Below are positions 4,475 through 12,830 of a stretch of 40,557 bases of DNA, in pieces. Source of the stretch: a virus; IMG/VR virus record IMGVR_UViG_3300048625_000174, positions 1 through 40,557 of that record, one strand, 5' to 3'. Positions within the stretch are counted from its first letter, which is position 1. Each line of letters opens with the position of its first letter. The notes under the pieces are model-generated. The model had not been told where the DNA came from, did not search any database, and saw only the letters and a list, made by a program, of their open reading frames with translations. A program made the position numbers and the translations under genes.

Positions 4475-5110
4475 ATGGAAACAAAACGTCTTGCTGTAAA
4501 TTCGCTCGACCTGAAATTTGTCGGCGACGATATGTCGTTTTCTGGTTACGCCTCAGTGTTTGGCGGCGTGGATGCTTATGGCGACACGATTGACCCGAAG
4601 GCGTATGACCGCACACTCATCAACCGTGATCGTCCGATTCGATTGCGTTGGAACCACTATGGCCCTGTAATTGGCAAGTGGAAAAACATGTTTGTTGATG
4701 ACAAGGGTTTGTTTGTTGAGGGTCAATTGACACCTGGCCATTCAACCGCAATGGATGTCTATGCTTCGATGAAGCACGGCGCTATCGACGGTATGTCCAT
4801 TGGTTACATCCCGACAAAGAGCGAGCAGATTGATGACAATCGTCGCTTGTTGAAAGAAATTGATTTGTTTGAGATCAGTGTTGTTGAAGAGCCTGCCGAT
4901 TTGAACGCTACGATCAATAGCGTGAAGTCAGCTCTCGAAACTGCCTCAAGCATTCGTGAAGTTGAAGCTGTGCTGAGGGAGTCAGGCGGCTTTAGTCGGA
5001 ATGATGCGTGTATGCTGGTATCGCGTATCAAGTCCTTGCTGAAAGGCGATCTTTTGGCAGAAGAAGATGCCAAGCGAGAAATTGCTCGGCTGTTCCAGAT
5101 TAAAGCGTAA
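4475..5110 (+). CDS. prohead maturation protease, HK97 U35/S78 family
   Basis: Serine protease that cleaves the delta domain from the capsid protein and then itself during head maturation. The family His is visible in RWNHYGPVIGKW (His 61 from this start) and the nucleophile Ser in GAIDGMSIGY (Ser 108). The GYASVFGGVDAYGDTIDP opening and LFEISVVEEPA core are typical. The 211-residue length is normal. Start ATG 4475 is preferred over GTG 4457 and ATG 4469 because AAAGGG at 4461-4466 then lies 8 bases upstream. The gene directly precedes the capsid gene, as expected. Confidence 0.93.
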   Translation: METKRLAVNSLDLKFVGDDMSFSGYASVFGGVDAYGDTIDPKAYDRTLINRDRPIRLRWNHYGPVIGKWKNMFVDDKGLFVEGQLTPGHSTAMDVYASMKHGAIDGMSIGYIPTKSEQIDDNRRLLKEIDLFEISVVEEPADLNATINSVKSALETASSIREVEAVLRESGGFSRNDACMLVSRIKSLLKGDLLAEEDAKREIARLFQIKA

Positions 5111-5132
5111 CCACTCCTTAAAGGAAATCATC

Positions 5133-6281
5133 ATGGAATTGAAAGACATCATCGAAGCTGGTTTGAAGTCGCAAGAAGTCAAACTGCAAGCTGCCATCGA
5201 CAAGTTCGAAGGCCAATTGAAAGACAAAGGCAATGTTGACACCGAAGTCAAAGGCGAAGTGAAAGAACTGTCTGAGCAGTTCAAGTCTTTGTCTACTCAA
5301 ATGACTGAGTTGGCACAAAAGCAAACCGTTGCTGCACAAATGGAAGCCAAGCCTGTTTCCGCTGCTGAAGAGTTCGTTAAGTCTGAGCAATTCAAACAGC
5401 TCGTGACTGGCAACACTCAACGCGCTCGCTTTGAAGTTAAGAACACTGTGACCTCTGGTTCTACAACTGTGTTCCCAGACCAAAAGCCTGGCATCATTCC
5501 TGGCAACTTCTTGCCCACTAGCATCCGCGCTGCTTTGACTAGCATCGCTGTGTCTACCAACATGGTCAACGCTTTGCGTGAAGCCACTTGGACAAACTCT
5601 GCTGCTGAAGTATCTCAAGGCGCTTCCAAGGCTGAGTCTGATGCGACTTTTGAGCAATACAACGTGCCAATCACAACCGTTGCTCACTGGATAAAAATCT
5701 CAAATCAGCTATTGGCTGACGCTCCTGCTGTTGTGGCTTATATTGAGTCTCGCTTGCGTGACGGTTTGGCTCAACGCATCGACGCTCAGTTGCTTAACGG
5801 CAATGGCACTAGCCCTAACCTGTCTGGCTTGACTGACAGCGGTAACTTCACTGCCTACAGTGCTTCTAGCGATGACTTGTTGGTTGACGCAATCTCTCGT
5901 GCAAAATACGCTTTGTGGGCAACCGGCAACGCTCCTGACACTGTAATCGTGAACCCTGCGGACTGGGGCGCAATGGAGCGTACACGCGAGACTTACACAG
6001 GCGGCAAAGGCGAATACCTGTACGGTATGCCTGGCATGGCTGCTGGCATGAACCCATTTGGCGTGAATGTGATTCTTTCGAACCACATGGCTTCTGGCAA
6101 GTTCCTGATCGGCGCATTGCGTACTTCTGCAATCCTTTACAATCGCAGCGGTGCTGTAATTGAAATGGGTTACATTAACGAAGATTTCACCAAAAACTTA
6201 ATTACAATTCGCGCAGAAGAGCGTTTGGGCTTAGGCACCGAGCGTCCTGCTGGCATTTTGTACGGTGACTATTCCGCTTAA
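5133..6281 (+). CDS. major capsid protein, HK97 fold
   Basis: Main shell protein. The first ~100 residues from ATG 5133 are a Lys/Glu/Gln-rich coiled coil (the delta or scaffold domain normally removed by the protease), and the rest is the HK97-type shell: TSIRAALTSIAVSTNMVNALREA, spread over two segments here, then NGNGTSPNLSGL, and the conserved end NLITIRAEERLGLGTERPAGI. Start 5133 has AAGGAA at 5120-5125 at good spacing; an in-frame ATG at 5067 lies inside the protease gene and is unlikely. Codon use is strongly biased (GCT, CGC, AAG), fitting a highly expressed gene. A strong terminator follows. Confidence 0.95.
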   Translation: MELKDIIEAGLKSQEVKLQAAIDKFEGQLKDKGNVDTEVKGEVKELSEQFKSLSTQMTELAQKQTVAAQMEAKPVSAAEEFVKSEQFKQLVTGNTQRARFEVKNTVTSGSTTVFPDQKPGIIPGNFLPTSIRAALTSIAVSTNMVNALREATWTNSAAEVSQGASKAESDATFEQYNVPITTVAHWIKISNQLLADAPAVVAYIESRLRDGLAQRIDAQLLNGNGTSPNLSGLTDSGNFTAYSASSDDLLVDAISRAKYALWATGNAPDTVIVNPADWGAMERTRETYTGGKGEYLYGMPGMAAGMNPFGVNVILSNHMASGKFLIGALRTSAILYNRSGAVIEMGYINEDFTKNLITIRAEERLGLGTERPAGILYGDYSA

Positions 6282-6363: not shown

Positions 6364-7044
6364 ATGGAAGTCAAATTTTGCAATAAATGCTCAACTAAAA
6401 AGTCATTGTTTGAGTTTGGCAAATCGAACAGGAGTAAGGATGGATTGCAGTCTAAGTGTAAGGAATGCGACAAAGATTACCGAAATAAAAATAAAAGCAA
6501 GATTGCCAAGTACATGTCTGAGTACAACATAAAAAACAGAGATTTACTGGTCAAGAAAAAAAGACAGTACAGAATAGAAAACATAGACGAAATAAGAAGA
6601 CGAGACAGGCTGTGGTCTATAAAAAATAAAGAAAAGGTAAGAGCAAACCAAGAAAAGCAATGGTCACTAAACAGGAAGAAATATTACGCTAAGGCTGTTG
6701 AAAGATGCAAGTTGAGAAGGTCGAGCGATGATATTTATTACTTGAAAGGGAAAATATCTCATAGAGTGCGTATGGCCATGAAAGGAATTGGTCTAAGAAA
6801 AGGTTCAGCAACATCAGAAATGATCGGATGCACTTGGGAAGAGTTTCATTTGCATATTGAGCGCCAATTCCAAAAAGGCATGACTTGGAAAAACAGAAAC
6901 CTATGGCATATCGACCACATAATTCCACTAGCCACAGCAACTTGTGAAGATGACATAATCCGACTTAACCATTTCACAAACCTTCGTCCGTTGTGGGCTG
7001 AAGACAACCTTCGCAAAAGCGACAAACTGGAGTACATCTTATGA
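6364..7044 (+). CDS. HNH homing-type endonuclease with zinc ribbon
   Basis: Probable selfish free-standing endonuclease. The N-terminus has a Cys4 zinc ribbon (Cys 6, 9, 32, 35), the middle is Lys/Arg-rich DNA-binding helix, and the C-terminal nuclease has WHIDHIIPL (His 182, Asp 184, His 185) followed by NHFTNLRPLWAEDNLRKSDK with the Asn residues of the HNH fold. It is AT-rich in codon choice (AAA, AGA, ATA) unlike the capsid gene before it, a sign of separate origin. AGGAG at 6354-6358 sets the start. It sits between the capsid terminator and the next structural gene, whose start it overlaps (ATGA). Confidence 0.9.
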   Translation: MEVKFCNKCSTKKSLFEFGKSNRSKDGLQSKCKECDKDYRNKNKSKIAKYMSEYNIKNRDLLVKKKRQYRIENIDEIRRRDRLWSIKNKEKVRANQEKQWSLNRKKYYAKAVERCKLRRSSDDIYYLKGKISHRVRMAMKGIGLRKGSATSEMIGCTWEEFHLHIERQFQKGMTWKNRNLWHIDHIIPLATATCEDDIIRLNHFTNLRPLWAEDNLRKSDKLEYIL

Positions 7045-7331
7045 AAATCGTAATCACATCAAAGAAGCCAATCATGGCTGTCGGCTATGGTCGCTTGCCA
7101 GCTGGTGTGCCAGTTGAAGTCAAGGACTCATTGGCTATGTTTTTTATCGAACGAGGGGAAGCTGTTCGTTTTGAGACAAAGGAGTTGGCAGATCGCCCTT
7201 TAGTGGAAGATGGCGAGGAGGAACAGTCGTCGTCCTTGCCAGCGGCCCAAGCCTCAACGGAGGAGACATCGAGCGAGTCAGAAACTGGCGTTTCGATGAG
7301 CAAGCGCGGACGCAAGAAAAAAGGGCAGTAA
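7041..7331 (+). CDS. small head-region protein; probable frameshift donor
   Basis: The 0-frame product has 96 residues. Residues 1-54 form a compact, folded-looking domain (MKIVITSKKPIMAVGYGRL, later MFFIERGEAVRFETKEL). Residues 55-96 are low-complexity acidic/Ser-rich sequence ending SKRGRKKKGQ. That tail is exactly the part that overlaps conserved codons of the next gene in the -1 frame, so it looks like overprinted filler. GGAG about 8 bases upstream supports ATG 7041. Function not recognised. Two products are likely: this 96-residue form and a -1 fusion of about 248 residues. Confidence 0.8.
   Translation: MKIVITSKKPIMAVGYGRLPAGVPVEVKDSLAMFFIERGEAVRFETKELADRPLVEDGEEEQSSSLPAAQASTEETSSESETGVSMSKRGRKKKGQ
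7178..7241 (+). other. candidate programmed -1 frameshift cassette
   Basis: The heptamer CCCTTTA at 7196-7202 is read C CCT TTA in the upstream gene, the canonical X XXY YYZ arrangement. An SD-like AAAGGAG (7178-7184) ends 11 bases before it, as in bacterial dnaX-type sites. After an 8-base spacer comes a 9-bp stem (7211-7219 with 7233-7241, one G-U pair). Slipping by -1 enters the frame that encodes the next gene, which is open from 7175 but has no ATG, GTG or TTG before its conserved region. All elements are seen in the sequence; function is inferred. Confidence 0.7.
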
Positions 7332-7786
7332 TTGTTGCCAACACCACGTTCAGAGCCGCGCCTTGGGCGGATGCTCTGTTTGCTCTTGATGAGCCTTGGT
7401 GGTCGTTGCATCTTGATGAAGTGAACCGTGACTTCGTTGGCCAGAGGTTCTGCACGAACAATCTGCCAGCGAAGTATATGACGACATATCTGAATCCTGC
7501 GAAATTCAACGCCTACGGAAATTCTGGTGCTGGCGGAGTGTCTTTGGCGCTGTTCGGAGATGCTGAGCGCGTGATCATGCTTGGGTTTGATTGTCAGCAC
7601 ACATACGGCAAGGCTCACTGGCACGGAAACCACCCCAGAGGGCTCGCAAACGCGAAACAGATAGACAGGTGGCCTGCGCTATTTAAACGACTCAGAGACG
7701 ACCATCCTGACGCTGAAATCATCAATGCAAGCCGAGTGACGGCGCTTGATATGTTTCCGAGACGAAATCTTGAGGATCTGCTGTGA
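7202..7786 (+). CDS. MptE/glycosyltransferase-like phage protein, likely frameshift-expressed
   Basis: The conserved reading frame begins FSGRWRGGTVVVLASGPSL just after the slippery heptamer and runs to 7786; RAVIVANTTFRAAPWADALF and a GFDCQHTYGKAHWHGNHP segment follow. The VVVLASGPSL beta-loop near the start resembles the nucleotide-binding opening of MptE/DUF115-like proteins seen beside glycosyltransferases in phage head modules. The first in-frame ATG (7455 or later region; a TTG at 7406 also exists) would delete this conserved N-terminus. I therefore infer synthesis as a fusion to the first 54 residues of the upstream gene, about 248 residues in all. An unusual start codon is the alternative. 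The stop overlaps the next GTG start. Confidence 0.65.
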   Translation, partial: SGRWRGGTVVVLASGPSLNGGDIERVRNWRFDEQARTQEKRAVIVANTTFRAAPWADALFALDEPWWSLHLDEVNRDFVGQRFCTNNLPAKYMTTYLNPAKFNAYGNSGAGGVSLALFGDAERVIMLGFDCQHTYGKAHWHGNHPRGLANAKQIDRWPALFKRLRDDHPDAEIINASRVTALDMFPRRNLEDLL

Positions 7787-8370
7787 GAATTTGCGTTTTA
7801 AGAAGCGGAAAAGAGTACGGGCCGAAGCACGTACAGTGGCTTGCGCGACAGGTTCCTGATTTGGTTTGCCTTTCTGATGTTGAGGTTGAGGGTGTGCACA
7901 CCATAAGGCTCAAACACGATTGGCCAGGCTGGTGGGCGAAGATGGAGCTGTTTCGGCCTGACATTCAGGAAGATCTGCTGTTTTTCGACCTTGACACAGT
8001 TGTCATCGGTGGCATTGAGCAGCTTGAGTCTCTTGAGCACACTACGCTGCTCAGTGATTTTTACAAGCCTCACTTGCCCGCTTCCGGCTTGATGTTGATC
8101 AAGAATCGCGACAAAGACAGGGTTTGGTCTGACTGGATGGAAAACCCAGAGGCACACATGAGGCGCTGCGTGACACGCGAGCATTGGGGTGATCAGGGTT
8201 ATCTGCGTGACGTTTTGCCGTGCAAGCGCTGGCAGATTGAGCTGCCGAACAAGATTTTCAGCTACAAGGCGCATTCATTGAAAATCGTGCCGGTAGGCGC
8301 AAGCGTGATCTGCTTCCATGGCAACCCACGACCATGGGATGTCAAAAAGAGTTGGATTCCTGAGCTTTGA
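7783..8370 (+). CDS. glycosyltransferase-like protein (DxD type)
   Basis: A 195-residue protein with a GT-A style core: RICVLRSGKEYGPKHVQWLARQ opening (shown in full length 22 only as parts: RICVLRSG and HVQWLARQ), KHDWPGWWAKMELF, and LLFFDLDTVVIGG carrying a DxD motif at Asp 69/Asp 71, then HWGDQGYLRDVL and a closing VICFHGNPRPW. These features match the nucleotide-sugar transferases of the GT8-like group. GTG start with GAGG about 9 bases upstream; overlaps the previous stop (GTGA). Placed in the head module with the MptE-like gene, it may modify virion proteins or a host glycan; the substrate cannot be read from sequence. Confidence 0.78.
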   Translation: MRICVLRSGKEYGPKHVQWLARQVPDLVCLSDVEVEGVHTIRLKHDWPGWWAKMELFRPDIQEDLLFFDLDTVVIGGIEQLESLEHTTLLSDFYKPHLPASGLMLIKNRDKDRVWSDWMENPEAHMRRCVTREHWGDQGYLRDVLPCKRWQIELPNKIFSYKAHSLKIVPVGASVICFHGNPRPWDVKKSWIPEL

Positions 8371-12119: not shown

Positions 12120-12512
12120 ATGGCAAAAATCGTACTTGGCTCTCGCCCTAAGAACTTCAAATCTCTGGTCACTATTCCAATGCTTGAAGGCGGCGAAGGA
12201 ACGATTGAGGTTAGCTACATTTACCGCACACGCACCGACTTTGGAAAGCTAATTGACGGTTTGATGGATGATGCGAAGGTTGTACCAACCAGCGAAGCTG
12301 CTGAAGACCAGGCTTTCTCTTTGGAAGACGCTCTGAACAAGACCAAAGAAACCAATGCTGACTACATTATGAAAGTTGCTGACGGCTGGAATTTGGACAT
12401 TGAGTTCAGCCGAAATGCCGTTGCTCAGTTGTGCGATGAGTTGCCAGCCGCTGCTTTGGCCATCATGAGCACCTACCGCAACGCTATCACTGAAGGCCGT
12501 TCGGGAAACTAA
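12120..12512 (+). CDS. tail assembly chaperone, short form (gpG-like)
   Basis: A 130-residue chaperone candidate that would coat the tape measure during tail assembly. Position between tube and tape measure genes, size, and the helical Asp/Glu-rich make-up (LEDALNKTKETNADYIMKVADG) fit the gpG class. AAGGA lies 8 bases upstream of ATG 12120. The last two sense codons are part of a GGGAAAC slippery heptamer, so a minority of ribosomes should shift -1 and make a longer form. The functional class follows from this arrangement more than from sequence similarity. Confidence 0.83.
   Translation: MAKIVLGSRPKNFKSLVTIPMLEGGEGTIEVSYIYRTRTDFGKLIDGLMDDAKVVPTSEAAEDQAFSLEDALNKTKETNADYIMKVADGWNLDIEFSRNAVAQLCDELPAAALAIMSTYRNAITEGRSGN
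12503..12509 (+). other. -1 frameshift slippery site GGGAAAC
   Basis: The heptamer is read G GGA AAC directly before the TAA stop (12510-12512) of the short chaperone. A -1 shift gives GGG AAA CTA and enters the frame of the next gene. Lambda-type G/GT pairs use GGGAAAG at the same place, so this is the expected device. Confidence 0.88.
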
Positions 12513-12823
12513 AACAGGTCGCTTCAGCTCTTTACACACCAGAGCCGAAAGGTCAAGCCACAACAGGGTTTGACCTTTCTCACTTGATTGCCTCTCAAGT
12601 GGTTGAAGTTTGGCCTGAAAACTGGCAAACTGTAGACCTGTTCATATCTGTCGCAACTCAGTGGCGAATTGGTATGGGTGGCCCTACAGGATTGGATTAC
12701 AACGTCTTATTCCGTGTGCTGGATAGCAAGGGTCTATCTGCTGATGATTGGGAACTCTCATTCGGCGACATTCGTATAATGGAATCGGCGGCATTGGAGG
12801 CGATGCGCCAATCTAACAGTTAG
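12509..12823 (+). CDS. tail chaperone frameshift extension (gpT-like, DUF1799-type)
   Basis: The -1 frame product adds 104 residues after the slippery site, giving a fusion of about 234 residues. It reads LKQVASALYTPEPKG, then LIASQVVEVWPENWQTVDLF, TQWRIGMGGPTGLDYNVLF and ends MESAALEAMRQSNS, which resembles DUF1799 proteins found before tape measure genes. There is no ATG near its 5' end; only a TTG at 12584 exists, without a clear ribosome binding site, and using it would lose the upstream residues. Expression by frameshift is well established for this gene pair in other phages. Confidence 0.82.
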   Translation, partial: LKQVASALYTPEPKGQATTGFDLSHLIASQVVEVWPENWQTVDLFISVATQWRIGMGGPTGLDYNVLFRVLDSKGLSADDWELSFGDIRIMESAALEAMRQSNS

Positions 12824-12830
12824 GTGTTGC

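Follow-up and report, generated by a model that had tools for sequence, protein, structure and literature searches.

A conserved -1 programmed ribosomal frameshift very probably joins two genes in the head operon of the virus IMGVR_UViG_3300048625_000174 and of many related phages, as judged by comparative sequence analysis. The upstream gene, which we call gene A, follows the major capsid gene, and the downstream gene, gene B, encodes a domain that is predicted to adopt a glycosyltransferase fold. The A/B loci hold a start-less overlapping open reading frame (ORF) in the -1 frame, an in-phase slip motif and a downstream structure at a suitable distance. Frame relation, motif, hairpin, fixed spacing and selection agree across homologs, and together argue for the original prediction, made from this one genome, that a -1 frameshift connects two head-region genes.

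The window, which is the whole stretch of 40,557 nucleotides that was analysed, carries on its plus strand a major capsid protein (MCP) gene of the HK97 fold (5067..6281; Pfam Phage_capsid, E 5e-40), gene A (7041..7331), the gene B domain (7202..7786) and a gene for a glycosyltransferase-family protein (phrog_1962; 7783..8370). The 0-frame product of gene A has 96 residues and consists of a folded N-domain (residues 1–45) and a disordered basic tail. The gene B domain is in the -1 frame, would be read from position 7202 after the slip, has its stop at 7784-7786 and matches phrog_4603 with an E value of 1e-46. The phrog_1962 gene is the next gene after it, and its GTG start overlaps the gene B stop, which suggests translational coupling of two sugar-related genes. 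The MCP gene lies directly upstream of gene A in 10 of 10 relatives tested; in the window this adjacency is broken by an HNH/EndoVII-like gene (phrog_1035; 6364-7044), which is probably a homing endonuclease and whose TGA overlaps the gene A ATG (ATGA). The same insertion is found in locus L012 and is absent from the close relative L014, while L008 and L011 carry an ORF of similar size and spacing at this position.

The frameshift cassette of the window is located within gene A. The B frame has its final upstream stop, a TGA, at 7172..7174 and is then open from 7175 to 7786, and ahead of its conserved VVVLASGPSL segment (7226-7255) it contains no ATG, GTG or TTG, and no CTG, ATT, ATC or ATA either. 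Gene A is read here as GAT CGC CCT TTA GTG, which puts CCCTTTA (7196..7202) in X_XXY_YYZ phase, i.e. as a slippery heptamer C_CCU_UUA in phase for a -1 slip out of the A frame. A Shine-Dalgarno (SD)-like AAAGGAG (7178..7184) is found 11 nt 5' of the heptamer, and a hairpin with a 9-bp stem follows after a spacer of 8 nt. The 5' arm of the hairpin spans 7211..7219, and the 3' arm, at 7233..7241, overlaps codons of the gene B VLAS motif. All of these elements, from the open frame to the stem, are present where they had been predicted. The hairpin has a minimum free energy (MFE) of -17.7 kcal/mol (z -3.14), with 2 of 200 shuffles equally good, and AAAGGAG occurs once in the window with 0 expected from 100 shuffles. 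CCCTTTA by itself is common (2 in the window and 2.7 expected), and in-phase heptamers are found in 2.9% of 63-nt in-frame windows from other structural genes; when this gene A peptide is recoded synonymously, 5.9% of the recodings contain one. Thus, the case for frameshifting from this one genome is only suggestive, and it is the conservation among homologs that makes it decisive.

Tblastn searches with the B frame gave matches that include phage D3, Psp6, Tetraselmis virus S20, PAJU2 and P1 PmgO, and scanning viral contigs plus a single genome for each bacterial species yielded 313 gene B loci, which reduce to 130 non-redundant ones at 85% identity around the junction. In 105 of these 130 loci gene B overlaps a gene A and is -1 relative to it; in the other 25 it has its own start or no A overlap. 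The B frame is without any ATG, GTG or TTG after its last stop in 83 of the 105 loci; CTG, ATT, ATC and ATA are also absent upstream of the motif region in 62 of these 83. The shift state spans most of the B tree (105 shift and 25 own-start rows), with 10 state changes on a quick tree, a number as low as which was reached in 0 of 500 shuffles. In D3-like phages, Psp6 and S20 the homology to B starts upstream of the annotated gene, within the -1 frame of the preceding gene, and the slip motifs are C_CCA_AAG in D3, U_UUU_UUG in Psp6 and C_CCU_UUG in S20. Two divergent loci beyond the typical Pseudomonadota set, L129 from an Omnitrophota MAG and L007 from Tetraselmis virus S20, keep the A/B overlap, hinting that the arrangement is old. 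A search with phrog_4603 of 369 further genomes of one class found no new full-length member, a tblastn search with one gene A protein against the phage collection gave no match and so demonstrated no A genes without B, and none of the own-start loci contains an in-frame A-B fusion of the Rosetta-stone type. Two loci are irregular, either as assembly errors or as decaying copies: L265 has an apparent frame break within gene B, and in L298 about 10 nt are missing around the hairpin relative to the near-identical L279, probably by a local deletion.

Conservation of the frame relation and of the slip motif in homologs had been proposed as a check on the prediction, and the slip motif is conserved along with the frame. 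An in-phase CCC slip triplet is present in 99 of 106 overlap loci, versus 46 and 25 in the two control phases; the 106 include L199, a chance A/B overlap that was afterwards dropped and reassigned to the own-start class, which leaves 105. A full in-phase heptamer occurs in 52 of the 105 -1 loci, compared to 6 of 105 in each control phase. The slip tetramers are C_CCU (64 loci), C_CCC (23), C_CCA (9, of which 7 as C_CCA_AAG) and C_CCG (3); the last is rare here even though these genes use CCG more than any other proline codon. In E. coli the tetramers C_CC.U and C_CC.C are equally shift-prone with a stimulator, C_CCA and C_CCG are barely so, C_CCA_AAG is the best heptamer with up to 54% frameshifting, and a tetramer alone gives a shift of at most a few percent with a strong pseudoknot (Sharma et al. 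2014, PMC4066793). The ranking of tetramers in the A/B loci agrees with this measured hierarchy, and about half of the loci have the tetramer only. Loci without CCC use G_GGA_AAG, G_GGA_AAA, A_AAA_AAG, U_UUU or U_UUU_UUG, with the exception of L129, in which no clear slip motif was found. In 6 loci a stop of the B frame is located immediately 5' of the CCC, which pins the slip to that codon.

The composition of the cassette therefore differs in part from the original prediction. The heptamer is in phase as proposed, and the core of the signal is the tetramer C_CCY, which is often extended to a heptamer (C_CCA_AAG, C_CCU_UUG, C_CCU_UUA), rather than CCCTTTA itself. The SD-like element is specific to some families: it is present in 21 of 81 loci tested, against a background of 9% per window, and absent in the other 60. 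As an essential part of the cassette it is unsupported family-wide; in the window, where it could be a local stimulator, and in the group around it, AAAGGAG encodes the gene A residues T-K-E.

The downstream hairpin is maintained at a fixed position. The CCC and a conserved TGG codon in the 5' arm are 15 nt apart in 81 of 89 loci. This holds for slip sites 36 nt and for those 42 nt ahead of the B motif, despite a 6-nt indel in the loop, indicating that the spacer is fixed and the loop free. When the MFE is compared to same-length windows of the same locus, the mean z is -3.04 in shifting loci and -0.85 in own-start loci. In an ungapped alignment of 23 loci, standard pairs are found in 87% of stem pair cells, versus 20–56% in slid controls, and the covariation score is above all 500 shuffles; the covariation is real but thin, since the two arms also code for protein and double changes are therefore few. 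The own-start loci serve as natural controls in which the encoded residues (GRW and ASG) are kept and the hairpin is not, and in two of them, L127 and L128, the hairpin z is above 0. Homologs with an ATG and no heptamer had been named as evidence against the prediction; they form only a minority, in which slip motif and hairpin have been lost together, as expected of a real signal.

These data bear on three alternatives to a frameshift at this site. Gene B might be translated independently, from a non-canonical start or by re-initiation, with its overlap with A being incidental. This would fit the 23 overlapping loci that have some ATG, GTG or TTG in a long open B frame, such as D3, in which a GTG or TTG is located 60 nt before the B motif, and the minority of B genes that start with ATG (P1 pmgO, PAJU2 and others). 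However, start codons of the D3 type lie upstream of the slip site and vanish in the close relatives L080, L082, L083 and L085, and independent initiation does not predict the joint loss of slip motif and hairpin in own-start genes. The lack of start codons leads us to reject it for most loci, and overall we regard it as very improbable. Alternatively, the CCC and the hairpin might be kept only since both frames code for conserved residues, with B being expressed through another recoding event. The hairpin arms do encode conserved B residues, so that nucleotide conservation is in part driven by the protein, and the pairing excess over a swap null is small but consistent (10.58 versus 10.41, sd 0.05). 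Against this stand the own-start members, which retain these residues and not the structure, the position of the slip proline 15 nt from the tryptophan in shifting members only, and the avoidance of CCG as the slip proline codon, the exceptions to which carry other known slippery motifs; we find this alternative hardly credible.

A sequencing error or a pseudogene has a negligible probability. A lone environmental contig could carry an indel, and an error in this region had been foreseen as a way in which the prediction might fail, but the same frame relation is found in the finished genomes of D3, PMG1, Psp6 and S20 and in prophages of many genera, which excludes it. Moreover, dN/dS between the window and close relatives is 0.06–0.16 for gene B (from the motif onward) and 0.07–0.15 for gene A (before the slip), and pN/pS in the D3 group is about 0.1 for both. 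These low values indicate that both reading frames are maintained and argue against a pseudogene.

In the mechanism that we propose, ribosomes translating gene A would reach C_CCU_UUA, or more generally C_CCY with an optional second slippery codon, and would pause where a GC-rich hairpin follows at a short, constant distance (8 nt in the window). The prolyl-tRNA, together with the next tRNA where the heptamer is complete, would then re-pair one base back on the CCC, and a fraction of the ribosomes would go on in the B frame. That ribosomes slip at this site, and at what rate, we infer from the conserved signals. The presumed majority product would be A alone, with its folded domain of about 45 residues and a flexible basic tail, while in the second product the folded A domain would be retained and the tail swapped for a Maf/CstII-like glycosyltransferase-fold domain that starts at the slip site.

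Structure predictions are consistent with these two products. The AlphaFold model of gene B from the slip site on has a mean pLDDT of 91.8 and its first residues after the slip are well folded, which suggests that the B domain begins where the shift puts it. Re-alignment with VIA gave Z scores of 15.9 to Maf (5mu5), 12.2 to the archaeal MptE-like HPPK (8sd5) and 11.3 to CstII (1ro8), with matches that span 144–172 residues, and the model has the Rossmann-type fold of the MptE/DUF115, Maf and GT42 sialyltransferase superfamily. The window protein scores 14.3 bits against PF01973, which is below the gathering score of 34.6, and weak matches to this family are found in 12 of 27 relatives (best E 2e-4). 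Foldseek alone gave no convincing match for gene B against the PDB, profiles of A and B found nothing significant when the PDB was searched by sequence, and NCBIfam has no model for either protein.

In the predicted structure of gene A the 45-residue domain is followed by a disordered tail, with the slip site at the end of the folded domain. The tail had been described as low-complexity filler; it is indeed predicted to be disordered but does not look like mere filler, as it is basic and often AT-hook-like. In particular, the mean net charge over the last 25 residues is +4.6, a KR-G-RK-type motif is present in 58 of 105 loci, and the Pfam AT hook model matches two gene A members. Gene A tails such as those of L176, L273, L283 and L284 often end in a KRGRPRK-like AT-hook although they are encoded over a variable loop of B, and the 0-frame tail may therefore itself be under selection. 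The folded domain can be overlaid with the C-terminal domain of lambda gpFI (2lsm; Z 5.2, 44 residues, 1.3 Å), a match that is tied with GINS and ribosomal L9, and hhalign gives an E value of 0.0019 for gpFI but a probability of 14. Gene A and gpFI share the gene position directly after the major capsid gene (the lambda E-FI order), and each consists of a small folded domain plus a further, partly flexible part. In contrast to gpFI, the order of these parts is reversed in A; no frameshift is known in FI, and the sequence support is marginal.

gpFI, a chaperone of DNA packaging, binds the prohead lattice and has been proposed to act via DNA binding (PMC4856287). If the resemblance holds, we infer that the short product would be a packaging-chaperone-like protein with a DNA-binding tail. 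The A domain would act like the capsid-lattice-binding domain of gpFI, and the fusion would tether a small number of B domains to proheads or capsids, where they would probably act, for example in virion glycosylation. By analogy, such a tethering role is possible, at somewhat less than an even chance. Accepting the frameshift, the fusion could instead be a soluble accessory enzyme that acts on the host surface or LPS, as a moron, with A merely providing expression, a reading that deserves weight but that we do not expect to hold. It fits the location of P1 B homologs outside the capsid region and the glycosyltransferase-family gene that follows B. PmgO of P1, which is homologous to B but has no A partner, is dispensable (PMC10695390), and the function may thus be conditional. 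However, B is tied by the frameshift to a protein that is encoded right after the capsid gene in all relatives tested, which would be hard to explain with an irrelevant A domain, and ORF010 of PAJU2 was called a structural protein by its depositors. Returning to the tethered fusion, a wider reading that we put forward tentatively, and consider unlikely as a whole, is that of an old and widespread switch, in which most copies of a capsid-bound, packaging-chaperone-like protein would end in a basic tail that binds DNA, while a set minority would end in a glycosyltransferase domain and would modify the capsid, or what the capsid meets, from fixed low-copy sites on the lattice.

Neither frameshifting itself nor the addition of domains to head proteins by frameshifting is new (PMC5009743); not found in the literature searched were this pair of genes, the domain that is appended and conservation on such a scale. 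The original prediction had regarded frameshifting as unfamiliar for this gene pair, and we found no report of it in the open-access literature searched. The GenBank records inspected contain no joined A-B coding sequence and show A and B as two unrelated hypothetical proteins, with B truncated to an internal start or unannotated. If the frameshift is real, many phages of Pseudomonadota, among them D3, which has long been studied, have a conserved recoded gene pair in their head operon, such B genes are mis-started, the A-B fusion is missing from protein databases, and an enzyme-fold domain joins the short list of domains that are appended to phage head proteins by frameshifting. The A/B loci also form a natural collection of about 100 C_CCN tetramer or heptamer signals for studies of slip-site evolution, and D3 on Pseudomonas aeruginosa PAO1 is a system that allows a direct test.

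Among the closest parallels are frameshift-appended domains on phage capsid and tail proteins, which have been reviewed for Ig-like domains (PMC5009743). In T3/T7 gp10, Lactobacillus phage A2 and Listeria PSA/A118, as in A/B, a short and an extended head protein are made. The A/B fusion differs in that it appends a glycosyltransferase fold and not an Ig-like one, in that the domain is added to a protein other than the major capsid protein, and in that its signal is conserved across very divergent phages whereas theirs are scattered. With the bacterial -1 frameshift cassettes of IS3/IS1 elements and dnaX (Z_ZZN or X_XXZ_ZZN plus stimulators), A/B share the motif grammar, including C_CCU/C_CCC and C_CCA_AAG, a hairpin a short distance downstream and, in some members, an SD-like element; the genes differ, and in A/B a protein of the phage head operon gains an entire domain with an enzyme fold. 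P1 PmgO (phrog_4603, 'alpha-2,3-sialyltransferase') is a homolog of gene B that starts at an ATG of its own, with no fusion to gene A. A TTTTTTG between pmgN and pmgO in P1 (L005) is out of phase for a -1 shift into pmgO, which has upstream ATGs, and is not the A/B signal.

Like A/B, the lambda G/GT tail chaperone frameshift is a -1 shift in a small gene of a tailed-phage morphogenesis operon. A and B lie after the capsid gene and not, as G/GT genes do, between the major tail protein and the tape measure, and both the proteins and the slip motif differ. The window has a likely canonical G/GT-type tail assembly chaperone frameshift as well, at 12120-12824, with an in-phase G_GGA_AAC at 12503-12509 close to the end of ORF 12120-12512 and a -1 frame that stays open to just before the tape measure gene (12831).
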